NCBI GenBank assembly: GCA_037783415.1
Contig: JAZGTN010000027.1
Span: 3,496,001-3,560,000, forward strand
DNA: 64,000 nt
Direction of reading: 5' to 3'
DNA from: Leptasterias polaris
Lineage: Eukaryota > Echinodermata > Asteroidea > Forcipulatida > Asteriidae
The first letter of the stretch is position 1, and every line of letters begins with the position of its first letter. The position numbers and the translations under genes were made by a program. The notes under the pieces are model-generated. The model was not told where the DNA came from and searched no databases. It saw only the letters and a list, made by a program, of their open reading frames with translations. Positions 17,678-48,668 of this stretch are shown piece after piece.

Positions 17678-17942
17678 CTACTCGAAAAGTAGAAGCCCTG
17701 AAACAACAAAACATCTGCTTGTGCAAGTTGAATTTTATTAAATATTTTAGTGTTCTTCATAGCTGGTGTTTAACAAGTTTAATTTTAGTGATTTATTGTG
17801 AGAGCCAACAACTGATTTGTGTGTTGCATGAAATTTGTGCATTGTCAAATTCAAATGTGCCGCAGCATGCAAGCGCTTTTTGAGTGAAAAATTGATTATA
17901 TTGAAAATTCGTTTTGTTTTCATTCAATCGTAAAAATACAAC

Positions 17943-22200: not shown

Positions 22201-24289
22201 GAGAGCGGTCACTTTGGTTAGACCAAGATTCTACTGGCCAAAGATGGTGTCTGATGTGGAGGAGTGGATCAGATGTTGTGAAAGATGTGTGACGCATAAG
22301 ACACCCACCAAGATCTCCGCTCCTTTGGTCAACATCTCGACTACTTACCCGTTGGAGTTGGTTTGCATAGACTTTTTGAAACTGGAACAGGACCGAAGTG
22401 GTGCTCAGTACATTCTAGTCATCACTGATCATTTCTCTCGGTACGCTCAAGCACATCCGACAAAGGACAAATCATCTCGAACAGTCGCCAGGTTGCTATG
22501 GGAGAAGTACTTTTTGCATTATGGTCTGCCTACCAGATTGCATTCAGATCAAGGACGTGAATTTGACAACAAACTCATCAAGGAACTGACTGGTATGTTG
22601 GGTATAAGCAAATCACGGACTACGCCCTACCACCCTCAGGGTGACCCTCAACCTGAGAGATTTAACCGGACACTGTTGAGTATGATGGGAACTTTGCAGA
22701 ATGAAGACAAGCAGCACTGGAGTAAGCATGTTAGCTCCCTGGTACATGCTTACAATTGCACTCGAAATGATAGCACTGGATTCTCCCCATACTTCATCAT
22801 GTTTGGAAGGGAAGCCAGGCTTCCTATTGATGTTTCCTTTGGTACTTCTCCTGATTGTGTGACGAACAAGGACCACTCAAAGTATGTTCAAGAGTTGCGA
22901 AGTAATCTAGAAAGCGCATTTAGACGAGCATCAGAAGAGTCAGCCAAGTCGGCAACAGCAAACAAGCGAAGGTATGACCTGAAAGTGCGAGGAAATGAAC
23001 TTCAGAAGGGAGACCGTGTCCTTATCAGGAATGTTGGTTTGAAAGGTACTCATAAGCTAGCTGATAAATGGGGACAAGATGTGTACCTCGTTGTTTGCAG
23101 ACATAGTGACAATATACCAGTGTATCAGCTCAAACCAGAAGCTGGTGAGGGTAAGAGTAAGACACTTCACAGGAACATGATTCTTCCTATTGGAATGCTT
23201 ACAGGTGAACACAAGCAGCCGCCCTCTGAGAAGGTACATCGACCCATAACAAGAAAGTCAAAGAAACCCGAAACTGTCCAGTCTGACCCCGATGATCCAG
23301 AAAGAGAACTTGAACACATAGAGTCAGACTCCGAGGAATCTGATGTAGTTGTTGTGTGGCCCAAGAAGCGAGACTCCTCTTCACAGCCTGATACCCAATC
23401 TGGTGTACAGAACATCCTGATGGATGAAGGTTCAATTGATTTTGGACCACAGGTTAGGGCACTTGATGGAAATTCTTCAGTTGAAGTGGATTCGACATTG
23501 AGAGAATCGGCGGAGGAATTTGTTCCTTATTCCCAGTTGTTGAACTCTGAAAGATGTTCGATTATGGATCCTGCTGAGAAGACACCTGATTTGGACACCC
23601 AAGCCGAACCCTTTAGTGATACCGAAGCGAATGTGAACTCCTGCCTTGAAGACGGTCTGCTGAAACCCGTTGACGATGTCCACGATGATGGTGTTCCTGT
23701 CGCACTAGACCCCAGTGTTGAGGGGGACACATTGTCACTTCCTTCAATGAATGAGATGGATGAAGGCAATGTTTGCGCCAGCAGTCATGATGTCCAGAGC
23801 AGTGGTTTAACTTCCAGCGAGGATGATCTCAAGCAGATACCAGCAGATGACCTTGCAGTATCCGACCACCCACCTGGTAATAGTATGGACCCTGAAGGGA
23901 TTGGCAGCAATGCTGATGATCATGAACCCCATGAACCCCATGTCGAGACTACACCTGTTGAGATTACTGAGGAAAATGTCAATCAAAGCCCGATTTCGTC
24001 ACAGCCTGATCTTAGCCTACCTGATGCTACATTGCCATCGGATATCTCTGTGGAACAGGTTGTGGATGAGGTTGAATCGGAAAGTCTTGAGGATGACCAA
24101 GGTACATTCCCGAGTTCCCGCCCCTCAAGAGTACGAAAACTCCCTCAGCGATTCACTTACGATACGCTGGGTCAGCCTACCTACAGTTTGTCAGTTACCC
24201 CTACATTTGGAGATTTCGTTCCAGCACTAAGCAGGTTTTTGTTTGGGACCAGACGAAATGAGTGCATCGGGACGATGCAGCAAGTTTAG
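19223..24289 (+). CDS. pol: Gypsy Pol polyprotein
   Basis: The frame is open from the slip site. The coordinates used here start after the slip, because no ATG lies at the head of the domain region (a TTG opens the obvious ORF at 19331). Counting from 19331: aspartic protease D22-S-G; RT with the YMDD box at 487-490; RNase H with H-T-D653-A-S and ending near 765; integrase zinc domain from H948 (H-H-C-C); catalytic D1014, D1073, E1109 (35 residues between the last two, the D,D35E spacing); an SH3-like C-terminal stretch; then an acidic tail of about 300 residues of unknown role. All catalytic residues are present. RT copies the RNA to DNA and integrase inserts it. No chromodomain was recognised. 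Confidence 0.95.
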   Translation, partial: RERAFQRGRCDAPTELRPCSTQPSFRCQADTDIPEGLIGGLTIRTCKVDGVDASALVDSGSQVTLIYKKFFDTLDRSLYPLKDLVLWHGGDDLMPYLGWTEINLGFNEKFCGTRKMFRTLALVVPDSKSAVDYQLIVGTNAGVFKDCYSEVQRDSSEVTIDAVCDKIYEDIRCSTKAGPDGLLGYVKLKARGRVEIPAGSTKQVVGVIRNKCGKSVTGLLDSFVPNKLPGGIEVSCSLCTIKRGFSKVKVCLTNQNQNNRPVILSRRCIVAGAYLTSWVSDTSSETSDVPNPSSSGVAQCKVTSTSQSQNCSITEEEFRKLPFDWGPIDAKEKDRLLKIAFQRSEVFSTHEWDIGVTTEAYHEIRLNNDEPFRERSRRVAPRDLQDLRDHIQSLVDIGVITESRSRYASPIVIVRKKNGQIRLCIDYRTLNARTIPDQYAVPLVHEALDCLHGCNWFSVIDLKSGYYQIPMNPDDKEKTAFTCPVGFYQFERMPQGVKGAPATFQRLMERCMAGLNMSEVLVYMDDIIVFSSTLEQMEERLARVFDRLAEFGLKVSPNKCQFCCTSVRYLGHIVSGEGVQTDPAKVEALKTWARPENVRQLRSFLGFASYYRRFIEGFSVVAKPLFQLTGGVQKKDSVTKENSVNPRAPFGPRWTPDCETAFQTLKERLCTAPVLAFADMASPFILHTDASRDGLGAVLCQEIDHKVRPISYASRSLSPAEKNYPAHKLEYLALKWAVTEKFKDYLYSARGTRIYTDNNPLTYILTSAKLDATGHRWLAALATFDFTIHYKPGHCNQDADALSRRPDPNSVGGGEFNQTEMICDLEARLKVDSEEKYQTCGKEHVDAICARYLAGDVFSPSSNSASVDDLPLVYSMAMSAEAVPSNYCNPDTETKVVALDNVDWRKEQEADADISQLIKFVKEGVRPKRSDDFSKDLNIMLGQFNRLVLRDEILHRRSIDSNGLARFQLVLPKNYRAKAMRGLHNDLGHLGVERAVTLVRPRFYWPKMVSDVEEWIRCCERCVTHKTPTKISAPLVNISTTYPLELVCIDFLKLEQDRSGAQYILVITDHFSRYAQAHPTKDKSSRTVARLLWEKYFLHYGLPTRLHSDQGREFDNKLIKELTGMLGISKSRTTPYHPQGDPQPERFNRTLLSMMGTLQNEDKQHWSKHVSSLVHAYNCTRNDSTGFSPYFIMFGREARLPIDVSFGTSPDCVTNKDHSKYVQELRSNLESAFRRASEESAKSATANKRRYDLKVRGNELQKGDRVLIRNVGLKGTHKLADKWGQDVYLVVCRHSDNIPVYQLKPEAGEGKSKTLHRNMILPIGMLTGEHKQPPSEKVHRPITRKSKKPETVQSDPDDPERELEHIESDSEESDVVVVWPKKRDSSSQPDTQSGVQNILMDEGSIDFGPQVRALDGNSSVEVDSTLRESAEEFVPYSQLLNSERCSIMDPAEKTPDLDTQAEPFSDTEANVNSCLEDGLLKPVDDVHDDGVPVALDPSVEGDTLSLPSMNEMDEGNVCASSHDVQSSGLTSSEDDLKQIPADDLAVSDHPPGNSMDPEGIGSNADDHEPHEPHVETTPVEITEENVNQSPISSQPDLSLPDATLPSDISVEQVVDEVESESLEDDQGTFPSSRPSRVRKLPQRFTYDTLGQPTYSLSVTPTFGDFVPALSRFLFGTRRNECIGTMQQV

Positions 24290-25790: not shown

Positions 25791-26811
25791 AAATAGACAA
25801 AGATGTTTGTTTCTACTTGTGCGAGATTTATATCTTGTGATTTGTATCCCCATTCTGTATTCTAGAGTATTCCCATCAATTCTTCAAAAAGGAGAGCATG
25901 CAGTCCATGCCAAATGGGATATATGTGCAGTATTCATTAAGTGATTCAAAGTTGCTGGCCCCATAGACATTAAGAACACTAATTTACCTGGTTTGTGATA
26001 GGCAACTCGGAACACGAGACCCGATGAGCCATGAACCAAACTCGAAGCCTCTTTTCAGAATCGGGGTTCATAATAAACAAAGATAAATCTTTGCCAATTA
26101 TTATCTCCACCCAGCTAACCTTTTTCAGGGTAGACCTTTAACGAGGTCTAGCTTTCCTCCACATAGGAGCACAGTCATTCAAAACCCTCTGGAGTTCATC
26201 CCTCTGTCCATATTGCCCCAGCTGTAGCCTGGCTACATCTCCTGCACCTCATGGCCAGCCCATGCATCCACTTTTGGTCACATAATCAGCACAATCTTTG
26301 CACCGGATAGGTCATGCATCCCCCAATAGACGTTTCAAAAAGTAGTATTAGCTCGGTATTGGGGACTTCATTCTAGAAGGAGACTCGCTTCCACATCAAT
26401 GTTTCTGAATTGTTTGCAGTGTACCAGGCATTGAGGCACTTGAAGAGAACTGTCACAGGGAACGCTGTTTTTGTCAAATTAAAAAACTCAACAGTCAGTT
26501 CGTACATAAACCGATATGGTGGAACTCAGTCACCACTCTTGTTTGCACTAGACAAAAAGTGACATAGTTCTCTCCACAGTTCACTATGTTAGAAGAATCA
26601 GGGTGGTTGCGCTGTCCAGAGGAAAAGTCATCCCTACATAAAACGGTCTCTCAACCAAGCAGTCATTCAAACGATCTTCCAGACACCCTCGGGCGTCAAC
26701 AACGAATTCCCAGTCATTTATGCTCGGAACGGTATGAAGCCCCATTGGTGCCACTTGACAAGTGCATATATGTTTCACTGAATGATATGTATTTCACAGC
26801 ACCGCCACTTA

Positions 26812-27058
26812 TATCTTGCGGCCGCCACTTATTATCTTGCGGCCGCCACTTATTATCTTGCGGCCGCCACTTAGTAAGTTGCGGCCGCCACTTATTATCT
26901 TGCGGCCGCCACTTATTATCTTGTGGCCGTCACTTATTATCTTGCGGCCGCCACTTATTATCTTGCGGCCGCCACCTATTATCTTGCGAAGTTGCGGCCG
27001 CAACTTATTATCTTGCGGCCGCCACTTAGTAAGTTGCGGCCGCCACTTATTATCTTGG
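26812..27058 (+). repeat. 21-bp NotI-containing minisatellite, array 1
   Basis: About 11 units of GCGGCCGCCACTTATTATCT plus T. It encodes only artefactual frames (R-P-P-L-I-I-L repeats). Confidence 0.95.
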
Positions 27059-27900
27059 TAATCTTTGATAACATTCGAGTCTTGAAGGTATTTATTTTAG
27101 ACTTTTTTGAGGATGTGGGTAGGTGTAGAGGTCATGCTCCGACAGAATTGCTGCAAATTTATTGGACTTCCTTGTAGATTGTTATTGAAAGAGTTTCCTA
27201 CGTTGGGAGCTGAAATCACTCCTGAATTTTGTTATATTTTATATACATTATACAGTGGATGTCGATCCAGTGAGATAACCCTCTTTTCCTTTTCGTTTAT
27301 GTTGTTCAAATGTTATTAAATATTAAAAATAAGAGAGATTTTTTATAAGGCTTTGTGAGTTTGAGATAATAACAATTTCTATAAACACTGCTGCTTCAAA
27401 TGTGTAGATCAGTTTCGAGCCATTTTCATCATTGGTAAATATGGAAGTGTAAATTGAAGAGTTCTTGGTGATACCGAAATTAAGATTCGTGCCTTGTTAT
27501 GAATTCTTTGTTGATCAAGTTTCTTTACAAGACTGCATCACTTAATCTCCAGCTTATGCCTACTTCAATTAGGAAGTTATGTATGATAGTATTGACTTAG
27601 TAACTTTTTGAACATTGGGGTTTTAAAATGGTTGAAACCCACTTTATAATTTTGAGACTATATTTTACAGGGCCTTGTATATACCGGTACCTTTTGCTGA
27701 TATAGACTGTTAAAGTAAAACAATACCCAGGATACAATCTTAGTATTCCGCATCTTTCGGCGGTGTAAAATGCACGTTACTTAGAAAATCTCTTTCAAAA
27801 CCTGTAACTGGTTCATTCGTTTTTGAAAAGTAAACTCATCAAGCAAAAAACATAGGTCACAGGCTAGCAGCTGAATCGTGAAGTTTCATCCATGCATGAC
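27059..27900. other. Centre of the fold-back structure, no gene seen
   Basis: AT-rich unique-looking sequence of about 840 bp between mirror-image minisatellites. Confidence 0.6.
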
Positions 27901-27902
27901 AA

Positions 27903-28512
27903 CTGGCAAGATACTAAGTGGCGGCCGCAAGATACTAAGTAGCGGCCGCAAGATAATAAGTGGCGGCCGCAAGATAATAAGTGGCGGCCGCAAGATAATA
28001 AGTGGCGGCCGCAAGATACTAAGTGGCGGTCGCAAGATACTAAGTGGCGGCCGCAAGATAATAAGTGGCGGCCGCAAGATACTAAGTGGCGGCCTAAGAT
28101 ACTAAGTGCCGGCCGCAAGATACTAAGTGGCAGCCGCAAGATAATAAGTGGCGGCCGCAAGATAATAAGTGGCGGCCGCAAGATAATAAGTGGCGGCCGC
28201 AAGATAATAAGTGGCGGCCGCAAGATAATAAGTGGCGGACGCAAGATAATAAGTGGCGGCCGCAAGATACTAAGTGGCGGCCGCAAGATACTAAGTGGCG
28301 GCCGCAAGATAATAAGTGGCGGCCGCAACTTACTAAGTGGCGGCCGCAAGATAATAAGTGGCGGCCGCAAGATAATAAGTGGCGGCCGCAAGAAAATAAG
28401 TGGCGGCCGCAAGATAATAAGTGGCGGCCGCAAGATAATAAGTGGCGGCCGCAAGATAATAAGTGGCGGCCGCAATATAATAAATGGCGGCCGCAAGATA
28501 ATAAGTGGCGGC
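27903..28512 (-). repeat. 21-bp NotI-containing minisatellite, array 2 (inverted)
   Basis: About 29 units of the reverse complement of array 1. Its outer flank (28513-28600) is the reverse complement of 26730-26805. Confidence 0.95.
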
Positions 28513-28669
28513 CGTGAAATACATTCAATGAAACATATACGCACTTGTCAAGTGGCACCATTGGGGCTTCATAGAATGGAGATCCGGGCACTTTGGAGAA
28601 CATTATTTGCTCATGCCTTTCCTCCAAGCTCTCTCCTAGGAGTATTGACAAATGACACAGAGGGAATGC

Positions 28670-29135
28670 TGCATGATCCTCATAGCCCCATTATGGCCAT
28701 GCCAGCCCTGGTTACGTAGTGATCCTCATAGGTCGATTATGGCCATGCCAGTCCAGGTTGCAGAATGGTCCTCGTATATCCCCACCCCATTTGGCTATGC
28801 CAGCCCTGGTTGCAGAGTGATCATCTAGCCCCATTCTGGCCATGCCAGCCCTGGTTGCAGAGTGATCCTCTAGCCCCATTCTGGCCATGCCAGCCCAGGT
28901 TGCAGAATGGTCCTCGTAGCCCCATTTGGCCATGCCAGCCCAGGTTGTTGCAGAGTGATCCTCTAGCCCCATCCTGGCCATGCAATCCCATGCCAGGTTG
29001 TAGAGTGATTTCACATAGGTCCATTATGGCCATGCCAGCCCTAGAGTGATCCTCATAGCCTTATTCTGGCCATGACAGCCCTGGTTGCAGAATGATCCTC
29101 ATAGGTTCATTCTGGCCACAACAGCCCTGGTTTCT
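28670..29135 (+). repeat. About 45-bp minisatellite
   Basis: About ten diverged units containing GGCCATGCCAGCCCTGGTTG, CAGAGTGATCCTC and TAGCCCCATT. No counterpart in the left half of the fold-back structure. Confidence 0.9.
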
Positions 29136-32557: not shown

Positions 32558-32755
32558 TTTAAAATCTGTGCTGTATCAGTTTTAGAATCGTGTTTTATCT
32601 TCGTCTCCTTTTTGCCATCTAAGCTTTATTTTGATGCAACAATACTACTTTGCTGCTCGTGATGTGAATTGGTGATGTATTTTTTCTATTATCCCGTGTG
32701 TTTGAGGGTATTTTTTACGAAAGCCCATTAGCGCGACGAAAAAATAAAAATCAAA

Positions 32756-32826
32756 TCCGTTATTACGGATTCGAATCCGTTATTACGGATTCGCAATCCG
32801 TTATTACGGATTCGCAATCCGTTATA
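32756..32826 (+). repeat. 21-bp palindromic satellite, array 1
   Basis: About 3.5 units of CGGATTCGCAATCCGTTATT plus A. Each unit is nearly self-complementary (TAACGGATT-cgc-AATCCGTTA). Confidence 0.9.
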
Positions 32827-33923
32827 GTGCAGCTGCTAAGGTAACAATTGTGCACTTTGTGGTAAAAGCATGAAATTTGCTATGATGGTTGGTATGGGGC
32901 TAAATATAATTTTTAGACTTGGACCCACCTTGGGTCTCACCTATTTTGGGGCGGAGCTTAATTTGCATAAAAGGGGGGTGTCGATAATTTAAAAATGAGA
33001 AAACCAATTCTAGAATTGAAAAATTTTGTATTTTTTTTCCAATTAATACAAGCTTGAACAATATCATAATTTTTGGGGTACAAATAAAAATTTAAAATCC
33101 CCCCTTAATGGGCGGAGCTTCGATTTTCCTAAAAGTGGGCGTCTTTTTAAAAGAATTTCGTTTCCTTGTGTGGTATCATATTTTTTGTTTACATACATAT
33201 TACTTATAGACATAGACTGAATGGAAATTGATCACAAATTAAATCGCCCTTATCGGACCCATCTTTTGTGGGTAGGGCTTGTATTTTAAACACTGGGGAG
33301 AAACATCTTAGGGTACATGTAACATAAACTTTTGGTTCCTTTTTTAGTATCTTAAACTTCTGAAAATATTTTTAACAGCGATTTTGTTTATAGATTGTCA
33401 GTGAATGATACATCCATACAATAAGACAAAAGTTTCTTTGCTTGAATACCATATTACCCTTGAGAATTGTAAGCGTCACAAGAGGGCGCAACTGTAATTG
33501 TCACAAGAGGGCGCAAAACCAATATGGCAGCCCCCATGATCTGGTTAAGTGCAGCCACGTGGTGAGTATTATTTTGACTTTTTTATACAAACATGGTCTG
33601 TAGGGAAGTAAATTCACTCTTTAATTTGATAATAACTTACAACCCAACTACAACCTCGCATTTTCTGCAGTAATTCTTCTCCATTCAAAGGATTTTAGTG
33701 TTTGAAATTGCATGGATAACTCAACTTACTAAAAGTTCCCATTTAACTGCATTACAGACAGAGAGTATACAGCGCGTCAGTCTGACTCAGCCATACAGTT
33801 GAAGACAATCTGATCTAAACACCAGTGAGAATTAGTAATATATATTACAGTCTGCGTATTACAACAGAGCAGAGAGACAGAGTAGGCCTTGTTTGGACAT
33901 AAACTGGTACACAGTGACTAAAA

Positions 33924-36900
33924 ATGGCCAAGCGCTACATGCTTGTTGATCCTTTCCAGCCGAGCACACCCAAGCAGCCAAAGATTTTATCAACAACCTG
34001 GGAGCGATGTGCTCTATGCCAAACTGATACGGATGAAGCTTTGCAATGCCCAGCAAAGTCTGCAGGAATTGGATATATGACCTTTGCAGAGAATATAAAA
34101 CAGTTTGAAGAATTCGGATGCACATTGCCCATTGACCTAGATCCTAGCCGACTTGATGATGATGGGCGTGGCATCGAAACAACACTGATGAAACATAAAG
34201 CAGTGTGGCACAAAACCTGTTTGCTGAAATTCAGTAAAATTAAGTTGGAGCGCGCCATCAAGTCTAAAACTGCGAGAAGCACACATGAGAAAAATGCAAC
34301 AATTCAAACTCGACGGCCAAGTGAACCATGCTCTGAGCCAATATGCTTCTTCTGTGAAGAACCTGCTGGGAAACTAGTTCTCCACAGTGTGTCTACCTTT
34401 GACCTTGACGCAAGAGTTAGAAAGTGTGCTCTTGATTTGCAAGATACAAAGCTTCTTCGAAAGCTGGCAGATGGTGACATGATAGCCACAGAAGCAAAGT
34501 ATCATGCAAGGTGTTTAGTTACATTATACAATAAGGCTGCTAGGGACAAGCCTAGTAAATCTCAGGATCCTGACGCTCATCTGCATGGCATCGTTTTGGC
34601 AGAACTTGTTGCGTACATGGAAGACTTTTGTGATCAGGAAGATCTTGTTCCTGTGTTCAAACTATCCGATCTTGCTACACTTTACCAGGACCGGCTAAAG
34701 CAGATGGGAGCAGTCAGTGATTCTAGAGTTCATAGTACACGGCTAAAAGATCGTCTAATGACAGCACTTCCTCATTTGTCAGCACACACAGAGGGCCGTG
34801 ATGTTCTCCTTACCTATGATACAAACCTTGGAGCAGCTTTGATAAAAGCGTGTGATTATGACAATGATGCCATACATTTGGCAAATGCTGCAAAGATTGT
34901 ACGCCGTGAGATGTTCACTCATCAATGTTCGTTCATGGGAACATTCAAGCAAGGTTGCCAACAAGATGCTGTACCATCCTCTTTGCTAGCTCTGGTAAAA
35001 ATGATACAAGAAGGACCAAACATCGAAAAGCAGTCTAAACTTGCAGATGGTACATCATCCAGGACCCCTTCTGCATTATCTATATCCCAATTGCTTATGT
35101 TCAACAGTGTTCAACACGCAAGCAAGTCTCACCTTCAATCGGGTAATAGAATACGCCACACAAGAGAAAGAGAAACACCTTTGCCCGTGTACATTGCTCT
35201 AAAGCTGCATGGACTAACCCGGAAAAGAATTCTGGTTGATGTATTCTACTGCCTTGGTATGTGTGTATCCTATGACAGACTTCTGCAAATTACAGCGGAT
35301 ATGGCAAATGGAATATGTAAGCAATTTGAAACAGAAAAAGTTGTGTGCCCAAGTAAAATGCGTCATGAACTTTTCACAACAGGGGCAGTGGATAATATAG
35401 ATCACAATCCCAGCTCTACAACATCTCATGATTCATTCCATGGTACAGGCATATCCATCATGCAACATCCATCATATAGGGATACTGGTATTGACCGTGG
35501 ACTGGTACTGATCAACAAAGAAACATCTTCAAGCTGTACAAAGACGGTTTCTCACCTACCAACCTTCTACACATCTGTTCCACCAGTTGCTATGAAGAAA
35601 AAGGAGTTCACTGCACCTACAGTACCTGGGCCGTTATGTCCCAGTGACGAACTGATGTTTTCTAAGGCCATTGAAGAGGAGAAACAGTGGTTGAATGTGG
35701 TCACTGCAGCCTTGAAGAGAGACAAACTAGATGATTCAGAATGGATATCATGGAGTGCATACCATGCCGATACACAGCAAACAGATGCCCCGCCACCAGC
35801 ATTGAATGCTCTGATGCCACTCTTCTTGGACAATGCTCACTCAGTTGCCATGATAAAGCATTCTATGGATGTTGTCAGTGCGGCGGTCAAGTACCTCAAC
35901 CCCGGTCAAGTTCCTGTACTTGCAGTAGATCAACCACTCTTCGCCCTAGCAAAGCAAATTCAGTGGATGTGGCCAGCATCACATGGAGAAGATTCTATCG
36001 TTGTGATGTTTGGAGGACTCCACATCGAGATGGCCATATTAAAGGTAACTATAAACCATACTCTACTATTTGTACATTAGTGCAATGTTTAAAAAAACAT
36101 TTTGTGTGGTTCTTTTTTTGTTACCTAGATTGTTTGTGTTTTAAGTTTGAATTCTATTACCATGTCTTTACAGCTACTGGGAGACTGGCTGGATGGTAGT
36201 GGATGGACCAGTGTTCTAACAGAAGCGAGCATTGCTAGCACGGGTACATCGGACTCATTCATCAGGGTATGCCATGTGACAAAGACACGTCATGCACACC
36301 AAGTCACTGCAGCCACTCTTCATGCTCTTCTTCAAGATGCTTACACTGATTACACTGATGGAACCACTGGTTCAGAATGTAGTCTATCATTTGATGACTG
36401 GTGCTCACAGCGAGCTCGAGAGAGTGTCCACTTCGACTACTGGATGAAGGTAATCTCTCTAGAGATCAAACTTCTAATCTTTGTGCGCTCCATCCGCGAA
36501 GGGAACTTTGATTTATACATTCAATCTCTCACTGCAATTATGCCTTGGTTTTTTGCACTGGATCATACTCACTACTCTCGGTGGTTGTCTGTTCACATCC
36601 GTGACATGATGTCTCTAGAACAAAAACACCCTTCCATCTTTGAGGAATTCAGAGCAGGAAAGTTCGTCGTCAACAAGTCAGTACACCGATTTTCAGGAAT
36701 GGCCATCGACCAATGCCATGAGCAGAACAACGCGTTGATAAAGGGTACAGGCGGAGCAGTTGGGCTAACGGATAACCCGGGAGCTTTAAGGCGTTGGATG
36801 GTGGCAGGGCCTGAGGTCGTCCGTGTACTGACTGAGTTTGAAGAAGACCACTTAAGCATATCCCAAAAGGCACGAAAAGGTAATAATGAGCGACACCATG

Positions 36901-38633
36901 AACAGCGTCCGGCAGTGCAGAATACTTTCAAGGCAGATGTCAGGTCCCTTAAAACGGCGATGGAAGAGCTCGGAAATCCGTTTCTCGAAACGAGCAAGGA
37001 TCTTCTTGTTTTGGATACAAAAGAAATAATGGAAGAATCAGTGGTGGAAGCTGTGAGAAACATCGAATACAAAGGAAAGCAGCAGTACGACACATTTGTT
37101 GAGGAGAGGCTGTCCACGTGTGTGAAGCCCGTTTCTGAAACAATTCGCAAGAATAAGCTTACGTTATTTAGAAGCTCTGGACCAATCCATCGGACCAAAA
37201 GTAAACTCCAAATACAGTCATTAAAGAGTGACTGTAACCTCTTTGCAAGGTTATATCTCGCGTGCCAATCACGAGACGGAGATATCGACACGTTCTTCGA
37301 ACATGAGAACCAGGCATGTCCACCTTCCTTGTCACAAAGCGGAAAACTGAGGCTTGGAACTAAAGCAAAGCTGATGTCCTGTTTGGAAGCAGAGGTCGAA
37401 GGCTCAAATGAACCTTTAACAGTTGATGCAACCATTTTGGATGGTGCTGCTATAGTACAGATGTTGGCCCCAGGAACAGTTCGGACATTCTATGAATATG
37501 CAAAGCAGATATTCGTACCATATGTGAAAAAGGAGCTTGGGAAGACTTCACGTTTGGATATTGTTTGGGATGTTTATCGGCCAGATAGTCTAAAGAGTAC
37601 AACAAGAGAAAAGAGAGGCAAAGGTGTTCGTAGGCGAGTTGAAGGTTCAACGACAATGCCAAGATACTGGAAAGACTTCCTGCGTGTAAACGAGAACAAG
37701 ACCGAGTTATTCAGTTTCTTGACGCAGCAGATTACATTGTTAGCAATACCCGGCAAAGATATATACGCTACTGATGGGGGAAGTGTTCGCTGCTCTCCAT
37801 CCACACTCGATATCAGCAGGATAGCCCCATGTTCTCATGAAGAAGCGGACACCCGAATGCTTTTGCATGCAGCCGATGCCAAGCAGAAAGGATGTAAGAA
37901 GCTATTGGTGCGCACAGTAGACACCGATGTTGTTGTCATTGCAATATCTGTCATGAATGACATCAAGCCTGAAGAGCTCTGGGTGGCCTTTGGAGTTGGC
38001 AAGAACTTCAGATATATACCCATTCACAGCATTGCTGCATCAATTGGTCCTCGGAAGTCAGCTGCCCTCCCATTCTTTCATTCTTTCACTGGCTGTGATA
38101 CAGTATCATCATTTACAGGGATAGGGAAAAAGACGGCATGGAATGTATGGAATGTGTACCCTGAAGCAACTGAAGCCTTTGAGGAGTTGGTGTCCATGCC
38201 AGATAACATCAGCCACAAGTCCATTGCCTTGATGCAGCGTTTTGTGGTGCTTCTTTACTGTCGAACCAGTGACCTTGACACTGTAAATGAGGCAAGAAAA
38301 CAACTGTTTGCAAGTAAGTCCCGTTCAATAGAGAATATTCCACCGACCTTTGCTTCCCTTCTTCAACACATCAAACGTGCTTGCTTTCAAAGTAACTGTT
38401 GGAAGTTCTGTCTTCATCCTGATCATCATCAGCCAAGCCCTTCGGATTGGGGATGGACAAAAGTGTCCGGACTGTGGCATCCATTTTGGACCACACTTCC
38501 AGAAGCATCCAAGACATGCTCAGAGTTACTACACTGCTCATGCAAGAAGTCATGCGGTGGACGCTGCAAGTGTGGAAAGGCTGGATTGGCATGCACTGTA
38601 TTATGTGCATGCTCAGGAGAATGCCAAGATTAA
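33924..38633 (+). CDS. Transposon protein with FEN1/XPG-like nuclease motifs (Academ-X-like transposase)
   Basis: Two exons, 33924-36044 and 36174-38633, joined at phase 0 (AAAG/GTAACT...TTTACAG), give 1526 residues. The N-terminus has paired C-x2-C motifs (C29/C32, and C-F-F-C near 142) each followed by H-x-x-C, suggesting zinc fingers. The C-terminal third has H-E-E-A-D-T-R (from 1262), T-V-D-T-D-V-V-V (D1290) and G-C-D-T-V-S-S-F-T-G-I-G-K-K-T-A (D1349). These are the acidic and helix-hairpin-like motifs of FEN1/XPG/PIN nucleases. A Cys-rich tail of about 30 residues closes it. Zinc fingers plus an XPG-like nuclease fit my recollection of Academ-X transposons. It is uninterrupted, so may be functional. 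AATAAA lies at 38777. Confidence 0.7.
36045..36173 (+). other. Intron of the nuclease-like gene
   Basis: 129 bp, GTAACT to TTTACAG, with a T-rich 3' half. Both exon frames stop within it if it is not removed, which supports splicing. Confidence 0.8.
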
Positions 38634-38984
38634 GACCTGTTGTTGCGTTTCCAAGAAAACCAGCATACCTTGTGTTGTCAAGGTAATCTACCTTACCTTT
38701 CCATTTTTCTTCAGAATAGAAGAAACCTAGTTACAGATTTAGGTGAAAATCTTGATGATCTACATTTAGTTGCTTCAATAAAAAGGGAAAAATAGGTTCA
38801 AGTTAACAGTTGGCAGATTATGTTTTAAAAAACGTAACTCCGCCCACAAAAGGGTCAGAAATAAACAAAACTTCATATAAACATTTATCATTTCACTGTT
38901 TTTATGTTTTGCAGTCCCAAAAAGTGCAGAAAAATAAAACAATCTAGTGGAAAAGTCAATTTGGCGATTTTTACCCCCACTTTC

Positions 38985-39135
38985 TTAAAACATAGCCCCG
39001 CCCCTAAAATAGGTAAGATCCGAGATGGGTCCAAGTCTTAAAATGATCCTTAGGGTGTATATAACAACTGTAGGAAGTTCCATGCTTTTACCACAAAGTG
39101 CACAATTTTTTCACATATGGGCCTTAGCAGCTGGA
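38985..39135 (-). repeat. Inner inverted repeat copy of 32834-32985
   Basis: Its reverse complement contains CAGCTGCTAAGG, GTGCACTTTGTGGTAAAAGC and AGACTTGGACCCA, then ACCTATTTTAGGGGCGG. All are present just inside array 1. Confidence 0.85.
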
Positions 39136-39140
39136 CTATT

Positions 39141-39319
39141 ATAACGGATTCGCAATCCGTTATTACGGATTCGCAATCCGTTATTACGGATTCGCAATCC
39201 GTTATTACGGATTCGCAATCCGTTATTACGGATTCGCAATCCGTTATTACGGATTCGCAATCCGTTATTACGGATTCGCAATCCGTTATTACGGATTCGC
39301 AATCCGTTATTACGGATTT
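39141..39319 (+). repeat. 21-bp palindromic satellite, array 2
   Basis: About 8.5 units with central TTCGCAA, the same orientation as array 1 although the flanking inner repeat is inverted. Confidence 0.95.
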
Positions 39320-39929
39320 ACTCGAGGATCCCTTGAGGGCGCTGTTTGCTGGTCACTCTGCTGCTTGGAGAGTGTGCAGTGGTTTCAACGTGACTGAGTG
39401 ACCGAAGAGTTATCGTGACTGGAAATTCTTGATACACACCCAACAGGTATTTTGTCTTTTTTTAACCTTTTCATGTTAACTGGACATAATGTGTATCTGC
39501 AGTAGGTGCTATAGGCTTGTTTGGAATTAGGTTTTGCTGTTTTTAAGCGCTGCTCTGCTGACTTTTTTTATGTTGCTAGGTATGCTTTTATTATAGCGGC
39601 CTGGCTGTTTATGCTTGTTTTTCTAGTACTGAGAACTCCCTCTGACTCTGATGGCCGGCCCTAGGCCATTCAATACAATGTAGGTTCGCCTGTGAGATCG
39701 ATGAGTTGGGCAATTTAGCTAGCTGCCTTAACTTCGCCCATGTAATTCATTCAGTAATTTTATTGTTGAAATGAATAAGTAGGCCTGAAGTTGCCGGATT
39801 GACTTAGTTTATGTTTTTAACCGACTGGATGGGGAGGGTTTCATCGATCTCCCGGCCAAAGCTTGGCATTGGGCCAAGAAAAGAAGGAGACCAAGTGTTG
39901 GCATTATTTACGGGGCTCGGTGTGCCTTT

Positions 39930-39937
39930 ATTCAAGC
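39930..39937. other. 8-bp target-site duplication, left
   Basis: ATTCAAGC, repeated exactly at 40856-40863. Confidence 0.9.
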
Positions 39938-40855
39938 CAGTGTTGTAGTCGAGTCACCTGTGTCGAGTCCGAGTCCGAGTCTCAAGTCACTTGGGTCGAG
40001 TCCGAGTCCGAGTCCCGAGTCACTTGGTCCGAGTCCGAGTCCGAGTCACGAGTCACTTGGTCCGAGTCCGAGTCACGAGTCACTTGTTTAAATATTGATT
40101 GCAAACCAAATGTCGTAAAATAAGAATTGGAAATGACAAAATAAAACACATTTATTTTAAACAAAGTTCTGTTAATTTTTTTTTAAAAGTTGGTATAACC
40201 AAAAGAAACAATACGGGGCGGAACGGCAGATGCCATGATTTAAAAAAATGTGTACTACATTTTACTAGTGACGTGACCAAACTTGACGTCGTGTGTTTCG
40301 ACCATGTGTAGAAACTGGTGCAAACAACACACAGCCATCACAGTGCAATATGCAGGCTGTGTTTTACAGGTACCAGACATGCCATTTCCCCGGTAATATG
40401 CATCAAGCACAAGCAGTGGCTATGGTGTTAACGTTGACAGAATACCAGCATAATGCTGGTGTCGTGCATCCCAGTGTTATTATGCGTATTGAACATACGA
40501 ATCGAACATACATGTACACGCGCTGTACGTAGATGGCCATTTACACAATAATCACGAACACTATTACTTGTAACACCACACGACAGTGTACTTATTTATT
40601 GTGCTAGACGTTAACTCCATGTGCACTCCGGGAATGACGATCGGATCATCGGAATTGTTTTTAATATTTAAAAAAGGTATTGTTTGTGAAAATACGTGAC
40701 TCGAGTCACGAGTCCTCGGGGACAAGTCCGAGTCATGATAGTCGAGTCCGAGTCCGAGTCTTTTGCAGACGTGACTCGAGTCAAGTCCGAGTCACCGAAA
40801 TTGTGACTCGAGACGGACTCGAGTCCGAGTCCTGGACTCGAGTCATACAACACTG
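39938..40855. mobile_element. Non-autonomous hAT element
   Basis: 918 bp with terminal CAGTGTTGTA...TACAACACTG and a perfect 8-bp duplication ATTCAAGC, the hAT hallmark. Both subterminal regions are packed with GAGTCCGAGTCC and TGACTCGAGTC repeats in inverted orientation, likely transposase-binding sites. No transposase ORF. It lies inside the giant element and is younger than it. Confidence 0.92.
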
Positions 40856-41265
40856 ATTCAAGCTGTATCCTGAAAAAAACAAAACACTGATTTTGAAAAT
40901 GATTTTTGGAGTGCCAACATCTGTTCCGACTAGCTTTAGAAGTTCTTTTTTTCTGTTGTTTTGTTTGTTTTCTTTGCTAACTTAATTACCATTTGTTGAA
41001 GGGAATCCAGTTCAATCATTTCTTTTCAGTTTTTCTCAAGCTTTCCTTGAGTCTAAGTACAAGCAGTTGTATTGTTTTCCCACAAGGCGTAGACCTATTT
41101 AAAGAAACAATGTAAATGTCCGGTCTTTTGGTGACTATTTTTCTCTTTTTGACACACCGTTTAATAATTATTTTAGAGGTTAAAAAAATGTTTACGCAGG
41201 TTATAATTTTAAATATTTTAATAAAAATTTACTATTTTTATTTTGTTTCTTATCAGGCAGATAAG

Positions 41266-44182
41266 TGTGGAGCGATGGTGAATATGTACAAGCCCTACAG
41301 GAGAGAGGGATTCAAATGGAGATAATCGACAGAATGAAAGATGAAAAGGTTTGAAACTCAGAAACACATCCTCTTCCTTTACCAGATTATAACCCATGCA
41401 TAAATAGGCCTAGCAAATAATTATTTCGTGTATTATTTGTTAATGTTTTGATTGTTTTACCTTATATTCAGGGGGTGTTTTGAATGACATGCCACACGAG
41501 GCTAATGTTAAAAAGTTAATGTAACAACAACTTATTTGGTAAAAGTCTTTGAAAGTAAATAGTTATAGGCCTATTATCGTAGACCACTTACATGTATGAT
41601 GGTAAAGGATAGGCCTATAATACATGACTTTTTTTTAATCACCCACGACAACCAATGGTGTGATATACTGTAGTGTAAACACTTAAGAGGTGCCACATAA
41701 AAACTGACCGATAAAGCATACAAAAAAAAAATCGGGTGTAAGACTCTCCTCTTTGGGCTGTACATACATAATGGTTTATTTATAACCGTATGGCTACACA
41801 AAGATGTCCAGTGAAGTCCAGAGATGAGCAACGGATAAAGAATTATTGTTAAAAGAAAATAATTAGACTTTTAATTATATTATATTGGTCAGGAAGGGTC
41901 AGTGTGACATGGTCAGTGAGGATGAGGGTGGTTGGTGGTCAGTAAAAACTCATAAATTCGTCAAGTCCCAGACAGCCAGCCCAGACACTGGTGTCTGGGT
42001 GGGCATTGGATTAAGACGATGGGGCACCTGTTGGCTTGAGACTGGGGAAGGATGGGGGGGGGGGGGGGGGGGGGAGTATGGGGCACATCAAAATTACAAG
42101 CAGTAACATTTTGGTGTGTAAAAAAATTATTTTTTTGCATGAAGACTGAAATTGCATTTCTTTCAACCGAAGTATACTTACCTTTCATCTTTTTAATTTT
42201 TGCTTTAGATTGACGCAGATACTGTTGGGATGATGGATGATGACACTTTAAAGACCTTCATCCCTCTGCTTGGCGACAGAATTGCAGTAAGAAGCTTTTG
42301 TCAAAAGGCAGGCCCATCAGATCCACCACCATCATCAAAGAAAAACAAACTCCTGAACACACTGCGTCGGAAGCTGCAGCTTAAACGGCGAAGGGAAACA
42401 GTCACTGATACTGAAGATGAAGAAGAGTTTGAAGCGTCTGGAAGTAGTGACAACCGATCAGTGAAGCTTAAAGGCAACAGAAATGCCCGGAAGGATATTA
42501 GAAAAATTGACATTGGGTGGATTGACTACAACTACCATACGAGTTCCTACAAGCAAGTCCGTAAACAGCATGGAGGAGGAACTCGGCCAGTTTCTGTGTC
42601 CAAAACAGCTGGCAGGGAAGACTTGGTGAAGTTATCTAAGAACCTTTTTTTTAAGGGCGGGAGTTCCTCAAAAGGAAAGTTAGACGATTTCGAGTTTGAA
42701 ATGTGCGACTTCAGAAAACTTCCAGTGTCTTCTGACTTCACCGTAGGTGCCCTATATGAAGAAGTTAAAATGCCTGTACTGCGTTTTTATCTGCAGACGA
42801 ACAAGAAAAGCCAAGAGAAAAGTCAAGCTGAAGAAAGCAAAGCTGAAGAAGGCGCCAAAACTGAAGATGACACCTCAGCAGAAGAAAACGGATGTGGAGG
42901 AAACAAGGAACAGAAAAACAAAGAAAAGCAAGAGGAGAATAAGACTGAAGCGGTTGCTCAGGCTGAAGAAGATGACCAAGAACTACCGGTACTTTGGTGG
43001 GATATCGGCAATGAGGTGGTTGTAGACATCGACAGTCCGGAATTAGTTGGATCGCAACCTGACACTCCGACTGTGCAGTTTGGACCATCGGGCAGTAACG
43101 AAGTCGAACATCTGAATGACACCCTACCGTTTCAAACTACCCCAGTGCCAGATGAAGAAGGGGGTAATTGTTCGGCAAGTTCTGGTGTATTTGAAGTGAT
43201 CATCCTTAGGAGAGGATTCATCATTGGAGATTTGATTGAGGCTTTCTCTGTGCCAAGCATCATGGGATCCAAAATATCGGTCCACATGATTTTACCCAAT
43301 GGTGAAGTGGAGTTAGGGCAAGGCATTGGAGTATTCCAAGATGCTCTCACCCAATTCTGGTTGGAGTTTAACGAAAAAATGACGACAGGAGCGACATTTA
43401 AGGTACCTGTCCTTCGTCACGACTTTTCTGAGCGGGAATGGGAAGCTGTAGGAAGGATTATTGCGAAGGGATGGAAGGAGCTCCGATATTTCCCAATTGG
43501 TCTTGCTCCAGCTTTTATGGAAACTGCCATTTATGGCGACAGTAAAGCTGACACTAAAGAAACTTTCCTGCAGTTCATTCCCGAATCTGAACGGGAGATT
43601 ATTGAAGCAGCATTGGATGAGTTTCCTTCTGATGACACGGGTGCTGATGAACTGTTAGACATTCTGGGAGGATATGAGTGCAGGAGATTACCAACTGAAG
43701 ACAACCTACCTCGACTACTGACTGAATTAGGTCACAAAGAGTGCATTCAGAAGCCCAGCTTTATCGCCGAAAACATGAAGAAACATCTCAAACCAGTTTT
43801 TTCACAGTTGTCCAGAAAAGAGTTTGTGTCAATGTATGATGACCTGAAGCCTGATGCGAAGAAAGTACTCGCGAAGCTGAAGTTTCCAGAACATGCTACG
43901 CCTCAGCAGGGCACGGTTATTACATTTTTGAAGAGATACATTAGATCGTTAGACAACAAATTGCTTGCAAAATTTCTGCGATTCTGCACAGCCTCTGACA
44001 TAACACCACAGGAGAATATCACTATCACCTTTACCAGTCTTGATGGGTTTCAGCGACGACCAGTCGGCCACACCTGTGGTAAAGTTTTAGAAGTACCGTC
44101 GACGTACGAAAGCTTTCTTGAGCTAAAACAAGAGTTTAACGAAATTTTCAACAGTGGGATTTGGGTAATGGACATCATGTAA
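41266..44182 (+). CDS. HECT-domain protein (transposon-associated E3 ligase-like)
   Basis: Exons 41266-41348 (upstream AG acceptor, donor AAAAG/GTTTGA) and 42209-44182 (acceptor TGCTTTAG) join at phase 0. The exon junction creates a SAM-like stretch (W-S-D-G-E-Y-V...I-D-R-M-K-D-E-K then I-D-A-D-T-V-G-M-M-D-D-D). Counting from Met 42230 (650 residues): a basic region, a low-complexity K/E-rich linker at about 190-255, a HECT N-lobe from about 360 (PNGEVELGQGIGVFQDALTQ), and a C-lobe with R-R-P-V-G-H-T-C616. That Cys matches the thioester Cys of HECT E3 ligases. A true 5' end was not found. The upstream exon starts in phase 1, so more exons probably exist. Confidence 0.75.
41945..42080 (+). repeat. 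Interspersed repeat with poly-G
   Basis: GTCAAGTCCCAGACAGCCAG and GACACTGGTGTCTGGGTG with GCATTGGATTAA recur inverted at 62935-63020. A run of about 20 G's (42054-42073) follows. Confidence 0.75.
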
Positions 44183-44213
44183 AATAACAGTAGGTGATTG
44201 ATTGTCATGTACA

Positions 44214-44529
44214 GAGCTCCACGAGTGTCATGCCACTTATCTAGATAACGACATAATTTATCTTGCCAAGTAAACTTTTTAAAACGAAAACTCCGACTTA
44301 TCATGATAGTTAATCTCACCAAGACGAATTCCTAAAACTAAAAGGCTGACTTATCATGATAATTTATCTTGGCGAGATAAATTATCATGATAAGTCAACT
44401 TCTTAATTTAAGGAAATCGTCTTGATGAGATAAATTACCTTATTAAGTCGGCGTTTTGTTAAAAAAAATTGACTTGGCAAGATAATTATGTTGTTATCTA
44501 GATAAGTGGCATGGCACTCGTGGTGCTCC
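44214..44529. mobile_element. Palindromic MITE 1
   Basis: Nearly full-length hairpin: GAGCTCCACGAGTG...CCACTTATCTAGATAAC at the left, mirrored by GTTATCTAGATAAGTGGC...CACTCGTGGTGCTCC at the right. TTATCATGATAA blocks lie inside. Confidence 0.85.
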
Positions 44530-44592
44530 TGACCTATCCCACTATCCTATCAAAAGCGATTGAAATGAATATGGTCGAACATATGTATAAAA

Positions 44593-44752
44593 AGTAGAAT
44601 ATAATGATCCACACAAAATTGTGTGGTTTTCGATTTACCTTGTGAACTAACACCGTCCGCCATTTTGTGGAGTCAAAAAAAGGCGGACCGTGCTAGTTCA
44701 CGAAATACAAGAAAAACCACACAATTTTTTGTTTGGATCATTATGTTCTACT
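44593..44752. mobile_element. Palindromic MITE 2
   Basis: AGTAGAATATAATGATCC and GGATCATTATGTTCTACT bound it. AATTGTGTGGTTTT and GTGAACTA...CGTCCGCC are also mirrored. Confidence 0.85.
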
Positions 44753-44848
44753 GTTAAAACACCATTCCAACCATATTAATTTCAATTCACTTAATAACAA
44801 ACGCCTTTTATATCCCAAATCACCCAATTCGGGGCAACGTGTACTTTA

Positions 44849-45140
44849 AAGGGTGTGTACAACATTGGTAATTGCCAAACGATTTAGACCTGTATCCACA
44901 CTTGATGTGACCCAACATATACATGAAATAACAAACCTCTGAAAGTTTAAGCTCAATCAAAACTTATATGTTCTAACTTTTTAAAGACTTTTTTTTTACT
45001 CATTTCCTAAAAAATATGGAATTTCAAGCAAAACTATTTCAAAGGAAGTTTTCCACCATGACCATCTTTATACCATGTAAGTTATGTGCAAATCTGTGAA
45101 AATTTATATTTTCAATCTTACCAATGTTGTACACACCCTT
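44849..45140. mobile_element. MITE 3 with perfect 23-bp terminal inverted repeats
   Basis: AAGGGTGTGTACAACATTGG plus TAA at the left is exactly mirrored at 45118-45140. TTA flanks both sides, a possible 3-bp target duplication. Confidence 0.85.
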
Positions 45141-45309
45141 TTAGCATTATTAACCACTAGTTACCCTCCATATTAATGTGACAGTTTTCCCCCCTTCCGC
45201 TGGCGGGCAGAAAGGAGGGACAATAAAGAAATATAGGGCTTCTCAAACTGTATTGTTCATTAACTTCTGACACCAATATAAAATCCCGGTCCAACAATAT
45301 TTACTTTAA

Positions 45310-45792
45310 AACTTTATTTGTTTACTTTGAGCACAAAGTGTGTGACTTAATACTTGCCAGATTTTATACTGTTTATTTATGTCAGGGTGGGGGAGGGGGG
45401 GGGGGGGGGGGGGCTCACTAAAAATGTTTTAGTTTACTTTGAGCACAAAGTGTGTGACTTAATACTTGCCAGATTTTATACTGTTTATTTATGTCAGGGT
45501 GGGGGAGGGGGGGGGGGGGCTCACTAAAAATGTTTTAGTTTACTTTGAGCACAAAGTGTGTGACTTAATACTTGCCAGATTTTATACTGTTTATTTATGT
45601 CAGGGTGGGGGAGGGGGGGGGGCTCACTAAAAATGTTTTAGTTTACTTTGAGCACAAAGTGTGTGACTTAATACTTGCCAGATTTTATACTGTTTATTTA
45701 TGTCTTTCTGGATGTCAGGGTGGGGGGGGGGCTCACTAAAAATGTTTTTGTTTACTTTGAGCACAAAGTGTGTGACTTAATACTTGCTGTAT
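45310..45792 (+). repeat. Tandem repeat with variable poly-G tracts, five copies
   Basis: Unit of about 90-125 bp: TTTACTTTGAGCACAAAGTG, TGACTTAATACTTGC, ATGTCAGGGTGGG, a G run that shortens from copy to copy, GCTCACTAAAAATGTTTTAG. Confidence 0.95.
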
Positions 45793-46680
45793 TTATTTTT
45801 GTATTTTTGATAGATATACATTTATTTTATATAATATTCTTTCAGGAGTTGCATATATTGGAATAAAAGTAAATGCATTACAATCATGAGTATTTCAAGT
45901 TGTGTTTATAAAAAGAAAATTAATGTAATTTCACGGATTCTAATTATTTTAAATAACTTTCAGTTCTGTAAATTTGAATAATTGAAGAAGGTTGAAAACA
46001 CAAAACACAGAAGTTCAGTTAGTTGCATTTATAGGTTTGCCTGTATTTTGCCTGTGTGTCTGTTTAGATAAAAAACATGCCATTTTATACACTACAAAGC
46101 CCCTCCCATGATCACTGCCAACATTATTTTACAAAACTCTCTTATTGGTTATTAACCTATGCCATGATGTAAAATGCACAAGTCTTGTTAAAATAATAAT
46201 TTCGTTACATTAAAGTTGTTTTTAGGGACCGACTTCTATGATGTTACATGTTAAAGTTATGACGTTCAATAAAAATGTTTATAAAACATAACTGTTCCTG
46301 TTTTCATCATGGTTTATTGAACTTAAAATCATATTTTTCTGTTAAGCAAAAATATGGAAAATAATACTGGCCAATTGGTTAATTAGGCGTCATCGGAAAG
46401 TTTAAGGGTATTATGCATGACAATTGACAAAATAAGCTTTACGGTGGAGACTCGACTTGATGTCTTTTATTTAAACCAATTAGATAATCAACTTTGGCAA
46501 CCAAGTGATGTTAAGTTTGATTTTGGAGGCTTGTAGTTGCACACCATTTACCCCCCCCCCCCTAAAAGAAGTGCTTAACACGATTTCTTTTGAATTATTT
46601 TATTCTGGGGGACTTAAACTAAGTCCTTTGAGGCCATGGTTTGTGTTTGATCTACCTTCAGACTCAGACAAGTAATGGAA
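45793..46680. other. No gene seen
   Basis: AT-rich spacer inside the giant element, between the HECT gene and the convergent integrase gene. AATAAA at 45862 could serve the HECT transcript. Confidence 0.5.
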
Positions 46681-48214
46681 CTACAACTGTCTTCGAATTA
46701 TTGTTCTGAGAAAATTATATAAACGAAGACCTTCGTCTGAGTCCCGCGGAACAGAGAAGCCACTCTCTATCATCAAGATGGTACACAGCTCAAACACGTC
46801 CACATCACAGGGGTAATCTCCTTTGAAGGTGCATTCAGTGTCACACACTTCTATTTCTTCAAGATGGACAGGCACGCACAGGTCTATGGCTCCGTACAGT
46901 TGAGGCAAGGAGTACATGACTGCAGGACGTCCAAATGGTCCATCGCGATTTCGCGAAGAACTGATGCGGTGGGCATTCCACTCTCGAACAACTGTGTCCA
47001 GCTCTTCCTATAGATACACAAGAAAGTGCAATACATTTTCAATTTGGGTAAAGTGGTGATAACGATGATTGCACAATGTTCAAGTGCCCCATGCATGCAT
47101 GCATGATGAGAATTGTTTATACCAGCAACCGATTGACGGGTATGGACACCTTGAAATAATATGTTAATACTAATAATTGAAATTTAATAAGAATAGCACA
47201 TCGGTTGTTCCAATTCTCCCCCATCAGTCTAATTGTGATATCTCTGGTGGTGTTTTTTTTACTGTAATGACTTTAAAACAATTTGATGGTGTGAAGGTGT
47301 CTGAATTGCGATAAAACAACATATTGCCTGCAATGTAACACCATGGAGAAAGGAAAGTAACACATACCTGGATAAGATTCAAGAAGCAAAATTGAATCAG
47401 TGAAATGTCCAGAAAATCTCCACTGAATTCGCCGTTGTCTTTCAATTCATGAAAAATGTTCATCCAAAACTGCGCACAATGTTTGCGTAAGATGCTCCAC
47501 CAGCACTCAATACGTTGGTTGTTCGTACTGCTACCGAGAATGACACTTTTTTCACCAGCAAGTGCGTCATGGCAGTTCCTTCGCAAAAATATCTGCATTT
47601 GATGCACGACGGTATTCTCGGTTCCAAAATCTGCCCTGACTATTCTTGGACATCTTCTCCTGTCACGCACTGCATGCATATAATAACCTGCGATTACTGT
47701 TGGGTCACTACTTGTTGTATACGCTTCTAACCATATTATTTGTCTCGAAAACCCGTCGATACAGCCATTAATGCATATTCCATAATGCTTTAACTTATCA
47801 TAAGAGTCGATGTGCCACATATAGTTCGGACCTCTAACTCTATACACGCGTCTCTGAAGCCTTTTCCTTGCTCTGCACTTAACTCCGTCGGGATCTAAGA
47901 TTCCTAACAGAAGGCGGACAGATTCCCTGTCAGTGTTAATACCATTTTGGATGCATTTCAAATGCATCCATCTGTAGCCATGTAAGCGGCCTGACTTCTG
48001 CACTTCTTCTTCAAGGAAGCAAGCTAATTCAACAATGTCGGTATGATGTTTCCGCCGAAACAAACCCATGCATACCTCGGAGTTTTCGCTGGAGAGTTCG
48101 TCTGCTTACCAAAATATTGTGGTTAGCTAGTAACGACGCCAGTATCTCATCATAGGTGAAACCCGAATTGAAATAAAAGCGAACAATTTCTGTATTTAAA
48201 GCTGTCGGTGGCAT
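46681..48214 (-). pseudogene. DDE integrase (rve-type), frameshifted, two exons
   Basis: Minus strand; exon 1 48214-47368, donor CCAG/GTATGT; exon 2 47007-46681 after TATAG, phase 0. The N-terminal helix-turn-helix-like part (48214 to about 48065) is separated from the catalytic part by a 4-base duplication, ATGCATG at about 48062-48068, which shifts the frame. The catalytic part has W-H-I-D-S-Y-D, V-R-A-D-F-G-T-E-N and N-N-Q-R-I-E-C-W-W, supplying a D, D, E triad. The C-terminal part has V-R-E-W-N-A-H-R-I and S-L-P-Q-L-Y-G. It resembles the integrase-core proteins common in fish, coral and echinoderm genomes and may belong with IS3EU-like transposons (uncertain). With a single frameshift it is a recent pseudogene or a sequencing artefact. 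Confidence 0.75.
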
Positions 48215-48285
48215 TGTGCACTTGTGTGATGGTGGACCAGCAATCTACTACAACATACAAGTCATGCATAAATCAACAAAGTATG

Positions 48286-48578
48286 AATCCGTAATAACGG
48301 ATTGCGAATCCGTAATAACGGATTGCGAATCCGTTATAACGGATTGCGAATCCGTTATAACGGATTGCGAATCCGTAATAACGGATTGCGAATCCGTAAT
48401 AACGGATTGCGAATCCGTAATAACGGATTGCGAATCCGTAATAACGGATTGCGAATCCGTAATAACGGATTGCGAATCCGTAATAACGGATTGCGAATCC
48501 GTTATAACGGATTGCGAATCCGTAATAACGGATTGCGAATCCGTTATAACGGATTGCGAATCCGTAATAACGGATTTG
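48286..48578 (-). repeat. 21-bp palindromic satellite, array 3
   Basis: About 14 units with central TTGCGAA, inverted relative to arrays 1 and 2. The outer flank GGATTTGATTTTT...GCGCTAATGGGCTTTCGTAA matches the left end of the giant element inverted. Confidence 0.95.
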
Positions 48579-48668
48579 ATTTTTTTTTTTGTGTGGCGCT
48601 AATGGGCTTTCGTAATTTTTGGATTTTTGGATTTTAATAAGTCTGAACTGTGTTTTCTGCAATTCAAG

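Follow-up and report, generated by a model that had tools for sequence, protein, structure and literature searches.

A 15.9-kb segment of the Leptasterias polaris genome carries a nuclease-like gene, a HECT ubiquitin ligase gene and a DDE integrase gene between shared inverted ends, which raises the question of whether the three genes belong to one transposon. The segment lies at 32715-48615 of the window, the whole stretch of 64,000 nucleotides that was analysed (contig JAZGTN010000027.1, positions 3,496,001 to 3,560,000). It is two transposons: an outer element with the HECT and integrase genes, and an inner element that landed in the left repeat array of the outer one. We hold with high confidence that the outer element is an IS3EU-like transposon with a convergent HECT gene, into which an Academ-X-like element was later inserted.

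The segment is bounded by true transposon ends. The sequence TTACGAAAGCCCATTAGCGC occurs at 32715-32734 (+) and 48596-48615 (-), the two copies being identical at 20 of 20 positions, and gave two window matches at ≤3 mismatches compared to none in 100 shuffled sequences. The genome search covered 629.7 Mb in 334 contigs (C-numbers denote contigs and L-numbers loci). There, the outer terminal inverted repeat (TIR) matched 605 + 645 times at ≤3 mismatches, and its reversed control 7 + 6 times. Chance origin was thus excluded by the shuffles and by the reversed control, and the exact, inverted ends described in the original prediction held up. The boundaries it gave were true ends, but the actual limits lie one base inward on each side: the outer element spans 32716-48614, with termini TACGAAAGCCC..GGGCTTTCGTA (TA..TA), a left TIR TACGAAAGCCCATTAGCGC at 32716-32734 (+) and a right TIR at 48596-48614 (-). 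A check for a target-site duplication (TSD) found perfect ATTTTT copies of 6 bp on both sides (32710-32715 and 48615-48620).

Arrays of a 21-bp unit sit just inside each outer TIR and are inverted relative to each other. They were found at three stretches, at 32754-32825 (+, 3.5 copies by tandem repeat detection), 39139-39318 (+, 8.6 copies) and 48285-48576 (-, 13.9 copies); the last is inverted compared to the other two, in agreement with the inverted satellite arrays first noticed at both ends. The unit AATCCGTTATWACGGATT is a palindrome at 16 or 18 of 18 positions. The arrays at 32754 and 39139 are one left array, split by the nuclease-like element. When this element is taken out, the split unit reads CCGTTATAACGG, a variant that is also present in the right array.

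The splitting element is 6,314 bp long (32825-39138) and has its own TIR, TAGTSCAGCTGCTAAGG. Its ends read TAGTGCAGCTGCTAAGG / TAGTCCAGCTGCTAAGG, the repeat extends inward in imperfect form for ~150 bp, and a TTA duplication flanks it at 32822-32824 and 39139-39141. The nuclease-like gene is therefore not part of the outer element; it belongs to this separate 6.3-kb transposon, which is delimited by TIRs and a 3-bp TSD of its own. Near-identical relatives of the outer element were compared on C83 and C171, where the HECT copies share 99% protein identity with the window's (C171 has a second N-terminal piece). Both have the same TIR followed by 6 or 10 array units, after which the sequence directly matches the window from 39319 onward (C83, 97.8% over 744 columns; C171, 95.8% over 663). 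Neither the inner TIR nor the nuclease open reading frames (ORFs) were found in either of these two copies, in 27 and 38.5 kb read.

Exact inner-TIR pairs were found elsewhere at C27:4833949-4840262, C58:7373937-7380249 and C78:1287797-1294110, with a spacing of 6,313-6,314 bp. These pairs are known from their ends and 30-bp flanks only, and the 21-bp array was absent from the flanks read on both sides of all three. Their TSDs were TGT, TTT and AAG; together with TTA in the window, the duplication is 3 bp in four of four copies. The inner TIR matched the genome 96 + 101 times at ≤2 mismatches, compared to 22 + 16 for the control. Because the siblings lack the inner element and inner-TIR pairs occur elsewhere without arrays, the inner element is self-mobile and inserted here.

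The original prediction had proposed a single giant transposon with several genes, or two elements joined in a composite able to move together, and had stated beforehand that copies with only the nuclease gene or only the HECT/integrase pair would indicate two elements. In the window, all three genes do lie between the outer TIRs, and once nested, the inner element could in principle be carried by the outer transposase. However, the search for copies with the same gene order found HECT/integrase-only copies and inner ends alone. The inner element is bounded by TIRs and a TSD of its own, is present in neither near-identical HECT copy, and occurs as TIR pairs without neighbouring arrays. A sister element on C56, read end to end, also has neither a nuclease-gene match nor the inner TIR. 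The three-gene unit was abandoned on these grounds, a composite of the whole segment was excluded by the sibling copies and the inner-element copies elsewhere, and no sign of joint movement was seen in the copies examined. Either form of this proposal is extremely improbable. The HECT and integrase genes, in turn, belong to one element.

The gene of the inner element consists of a 5' ORF (33918-36080, +) and a 3' ORF in the same frame (36129-38633, +), probably separated by an intron. The 3' ORF product has a cysteine-rich C-terminus, and its relatives are named CXC-domain proteins. Of 8000 candidates that were scored, 580 were relatives of the inner protein at E≤0.001. All three genes of the segment had been put forward as not host-like. 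Pfam confirmed the HECT and integrase genes, whereas no Pfam model above cutoff and no solved structure found by sequence names the third gene a nuclease, and these searches left an XPG identity unconfirmed. A DUF6589 match scored only 0.0037, below cutoff. The alignment contains invariant acidic residues E571, E572, D574, D598 and D657, which might fit an XPG-like pattern.

In the part of PMC10045372 available, the AcademX lineage of Academ (Kojima 2020) is described with 3-4-bp TSDs and is linked to a nuclease. The inner element is similar in its 3-bp TSD and differs in that a nuclease domain is unconfirmed. Its 6.3 kb compares to a mean length of 5,565 bp given for bivalve Academ in the available part of PMC10294476.

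The integrase gene of the outer element matched PF24764 (rva_4) at 1.4e-27, which agrees with the DDE integrase first proposed; rve scored 0.0057, below cutoff, and a profile search with the transposase matched no solved structure at E≤0.01. The catalytic exon (rva_4/rve) lies at 47368-48105 (-) with donor CAG/GTATGT, and the last exon at 46681-47007 (-) with acceptor ATAG/GAAGAG. These sites are consistent with an intron at 47008-47367, and the C-termini of relatives resemble the last exon by eye. The ORF at 47224-48105 has the spacing D100-58-D159-40-E200, and D100, D159 and E200 are invariant in 13 of 13 aligned sequences, the window's own included. The N-terminal part (48029-48244, -), compared with P0018, runs in another frame, with the change near 48066; the window transposase is therefore probably broken or dead.

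According to the accessible text of PMC10045372, TA..TA termini are present in all complete IS3EU families, and TSDs of 6 bp are the usual case. The termini TACGAAAGCCC..GGGCTTTCGTA were found in the window and in the C56 element, and TACGGAGCCCC in L073 and L074, where one end of each was read. TSDs of 6 bp were found in the window, in the C56 element (AATATA) and in five of the nine exact outer-TIR pairs described below. PF24764 and the invariant triad agree with the IS3/IS481-like DDE transposase of IS3EU. By its termini, TSD and transposase, the outer element appears to be an IS3EU-like cut-and-paste DNA transposon. Compared with the IS3EU elements in the accessible text of PMC10045372, it shares all three features and differs by its HECT gene and its 21-22-bp palindromic subterminal arrays; the words 'HECT' and 'subterminal' are absent from the main text of that source.

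The main exon of the HECT E3 ligase gene (42209-44182, +) has 657 open codons and matched PF00632 at 2.4e-8, above cutoff, as the proposed HECT gene should. The catalytic Cys lies in an HTC motif at residues 621-623, which aligns with STC of UBE3C and is kept in seven of the eight aligned sequences that reach this region, the eighth (P0008) having RTC. Model residues 322-653 match HECT domains, and the predicted fold is a complete two-lobe HECT that includes the catalytic Cys. The N-terminal half is conserved and contains a GGGTR motif. A probable upstream exon, EYVQALQERGIQMEIIDRMKDEK at 41272-41348 (+), resembles the N-terminus of P0001; its start is approximate and was set by eye. Among named HECT relatives, the nearest belongs to the starfish Patiria miniata. 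A Patiria protein, P0016, has its N-terminal half in common with the window HECT by eye, and its C-terminal half scores a fuller Pfam HECT, as if an exchange of halves had taken place.

The genome search gave at least 67 HECT and at least 112 transposase matches, merged to 48 and 90 loci. At 24 of 48 HECT loci, a transposase locus lies no more than 10 kb away, and 23 of these 24 pairs share the window's convergent order; at up to 25 kb, the counts are 33 loci and 30 convergent pairs. Uniform placement would give ~0.14 loci within 10 kb, an expectation that is too low for clustered elements, yet the observed 24 is far above it. The pairs are not all independent, as some contigs resemble duplicates of each other (C41/C102, C18/C111, C36/C129). 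Seen from the other gene, 30 of 46 transposase loci of at least 450 bp have a HECT locus within 25 kb. The identities of the two proteins to those of the window correlate (rho 0.78, 26 pairs; 0.64, 17 pairs after removal of near-duplicates), and paired proteins reach down to 32% (HECT) and 49% (transposase). A single contig of the 334, C58 (9.46 Mb), is strongly enriched: of the loci counted after merging, 15 of the 48 for HECT and 15 of the 90 for the transposase lie on it.

The sister family on C56 has 51% HECT and 71% transposase identity. Read end to end, its element is ~10.07 kb long, with TIR TACGAAAGCCCAATCGTGCC, the perfect TSD AATATA and convergent HECT and transposase genes; its inverted 21-bp palindromic arrays form a 432-column inverted repeat at 97%. 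Upstream of the diverged transposases L073 and L074, TACGGAGCCCCTAAAGGGAC is followed by 21- or 22-bp arrays. The only HECT-integrase linkage seen outside this genome is in Patiria miniata, where the LOC numbers of HECT P0016 (LOC119740149) and integrase P0090 (LOC119740150) are consecutive and their contigs are equal in length.

Nine distinct exact outer-TIR pairs were compared, and most of the pairs read are small copies. L020/21 (flanks as L018/19) and L026-L029 (flanks as L007-L010) were left out of the nine, as were L005, L006, L017, L024, L025 and L030, which have no partner in the stretch. The five perfect TSDs were ACATTT, GATTTG, TTTTTC, GTAATC and GAAAAC. A 4.3-kb TIR pair on C7 has flanks that are inverted complements of each other, which excluded it as a simple insertion. 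Matching TSDs are also missing from the pairs L003, L013/14 and L022; the flanks of L003 and L022 are those of the nested pair L007-L010, from which both were probably rearranged. Seven small copies of 0.9-2.0 kb, one nested in another, have TIRs and arrays at both ends and no HECT or transposase match. Their core resembles 44528-44812 of the window.

Several observations weigh against a nested IS3EU-like element with an established HECT gene. Four of the nine exact-TIR pairs have no matching TSD, and no right end was seen for the C83 and C171 copies within the 27 and 38.5 kb covered. Three of five diverged loci (L072, L075 and L076) have no such palindromic array within 1.2 kb upstream. There are 15 of 48 HECT loci without a transposase and 16 of 46 transposase loci of at least 450 bp without a HECT locus, each within 25 kb; decay or missed matches may explain unpaired loci, and HECT-less elements may exist. 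Within the 51% group, the ratio of nonsynonymous to synonymous substitution rates (dN/dS) for HECT was 0.7-2.1, with few differences and no sign of constraint.

The transposase loci without HECT and the lack of clear constraint would also fit a HECT gene captured by chance in this lineage, or nested there as a passenger, with no functional part in IS3EU, and many transposons carry captured host genes. Against such a capture stand the convergent order in 23 of 24 close pairs, whose proteins reach down to 32% (HECT) and 49% (transposase) identity to the window's, the correlated identities and the consecutive Patiria genes. In addition, synonymous divergence (dS) between families is saturated with the frames still open, which favours selection. 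A capture without function is accordingly quite improbable, and a HECT gene established in the element is preferred.

The HECT protein and its N-terminal domain might instead support transposition in a structural or DNA-binding role, for example by binding the 21-bp arrays, with ubiquitin transfer being vestigial. The conserved N-terminal half with GGGTR, still recognisable by eye in P0016 despite its differing C-terminal half, would suit this role, as would the arrays kept in small gene-less copies. The near-constant HTC motif (with RTC in P0008) and the full two-lobe fold predicted for the protein argue against this, and the cofactor role is considered unlikely.

Further features were recorded in the window. 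A CGAGTC-rich stretch of ~0.9 kb at 39938-40855 is missing from both sibling copies and is probably a further insertion. Between the HECT and transposase genes, 44203-44525 and 44604-44760 are foldback sequences by eye (with arms detected at 44276-44468), similar to miniature inverted-repeat transposable elements. Downstream of HECT, a 106-bp tandem repeat with a poly-G run (45320-45787, 4.4 copies) is partly present in the siblings. Outside the segment, two long overlapping ORFs at 17934-24289 (+; 445 and 1701 codons) are gag/pol-like by motifs read by eye, of the Ty3/gypsy long terminal repeat retrotransposon type, and a tandem repeat at ~26568-28719 has frames that read repeated GRHLLSC / PQDNKWR motifs. 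Rfam at gathering scores gave nothing in the window. Relatives were sought by tblastn in prokaryote genome contigs and viral contigs, with no match, and P0003 had no relatives in phages.

The preferred nested arrangement suggests a sequence of steps. The transposase would bind the TIR together with array units, most likely making the arrays putative internal binding sites, and would join with a 6-bp stagger. The HECT protein would take ubiquitin from a host E2 and would help the element, either through marking a host silencing or repair factor or through adjusting how much transposase is present. The Academ-X-like 6.3-kb element later inserted into one left-array unit, duplicating TTA.

Fungal IS3EU elements carry alpha-kinase and TET/JBP genes, according to the available part of PMC12730594. 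They resemble the outer element in having a transposase with a second enzyme gene in opposite orientation and a 6-bp TSD; their ends are TAYGG..CCRTA, and the second gene is an alpha-kinase in place of the HECT E3 ligase. The words 'HECT' and 'ubiquitin' are absent from the text of that source. The literature searches found no report uniting IS3EU and HECT, or HECT with a DNA transposon or transposase; they did not cover Repbase entries, so curators may already know the gene. By analogy with the fungal alpha-kinase and TET/JBP genes, it is possible, as a tentative proposal, that HECT antagonises the host by modifying silencing or repair factors. Animal IS3EU might likewise rely on two genes acting as a system: a dedicated HECT ligase would co-evolve with the transposase and disarm host silencing or repair factors, and the arrays would serve as a multi-site docking platform; this broader analogy is equally tentative.

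The retention of arrays in gene-less small copies offers a direct test of how the transposase recognises its ends. The finding may also account for some of the HECT annotations in the genomes of starfish, firefly and ribbon worm. To our knowledge, a protein-turnover route of host-transposon conflict is little described in animals. If the proposed role is true, a lineage that has kept its own E3 ligase over long divergence probably depends on altering host protein turnover.

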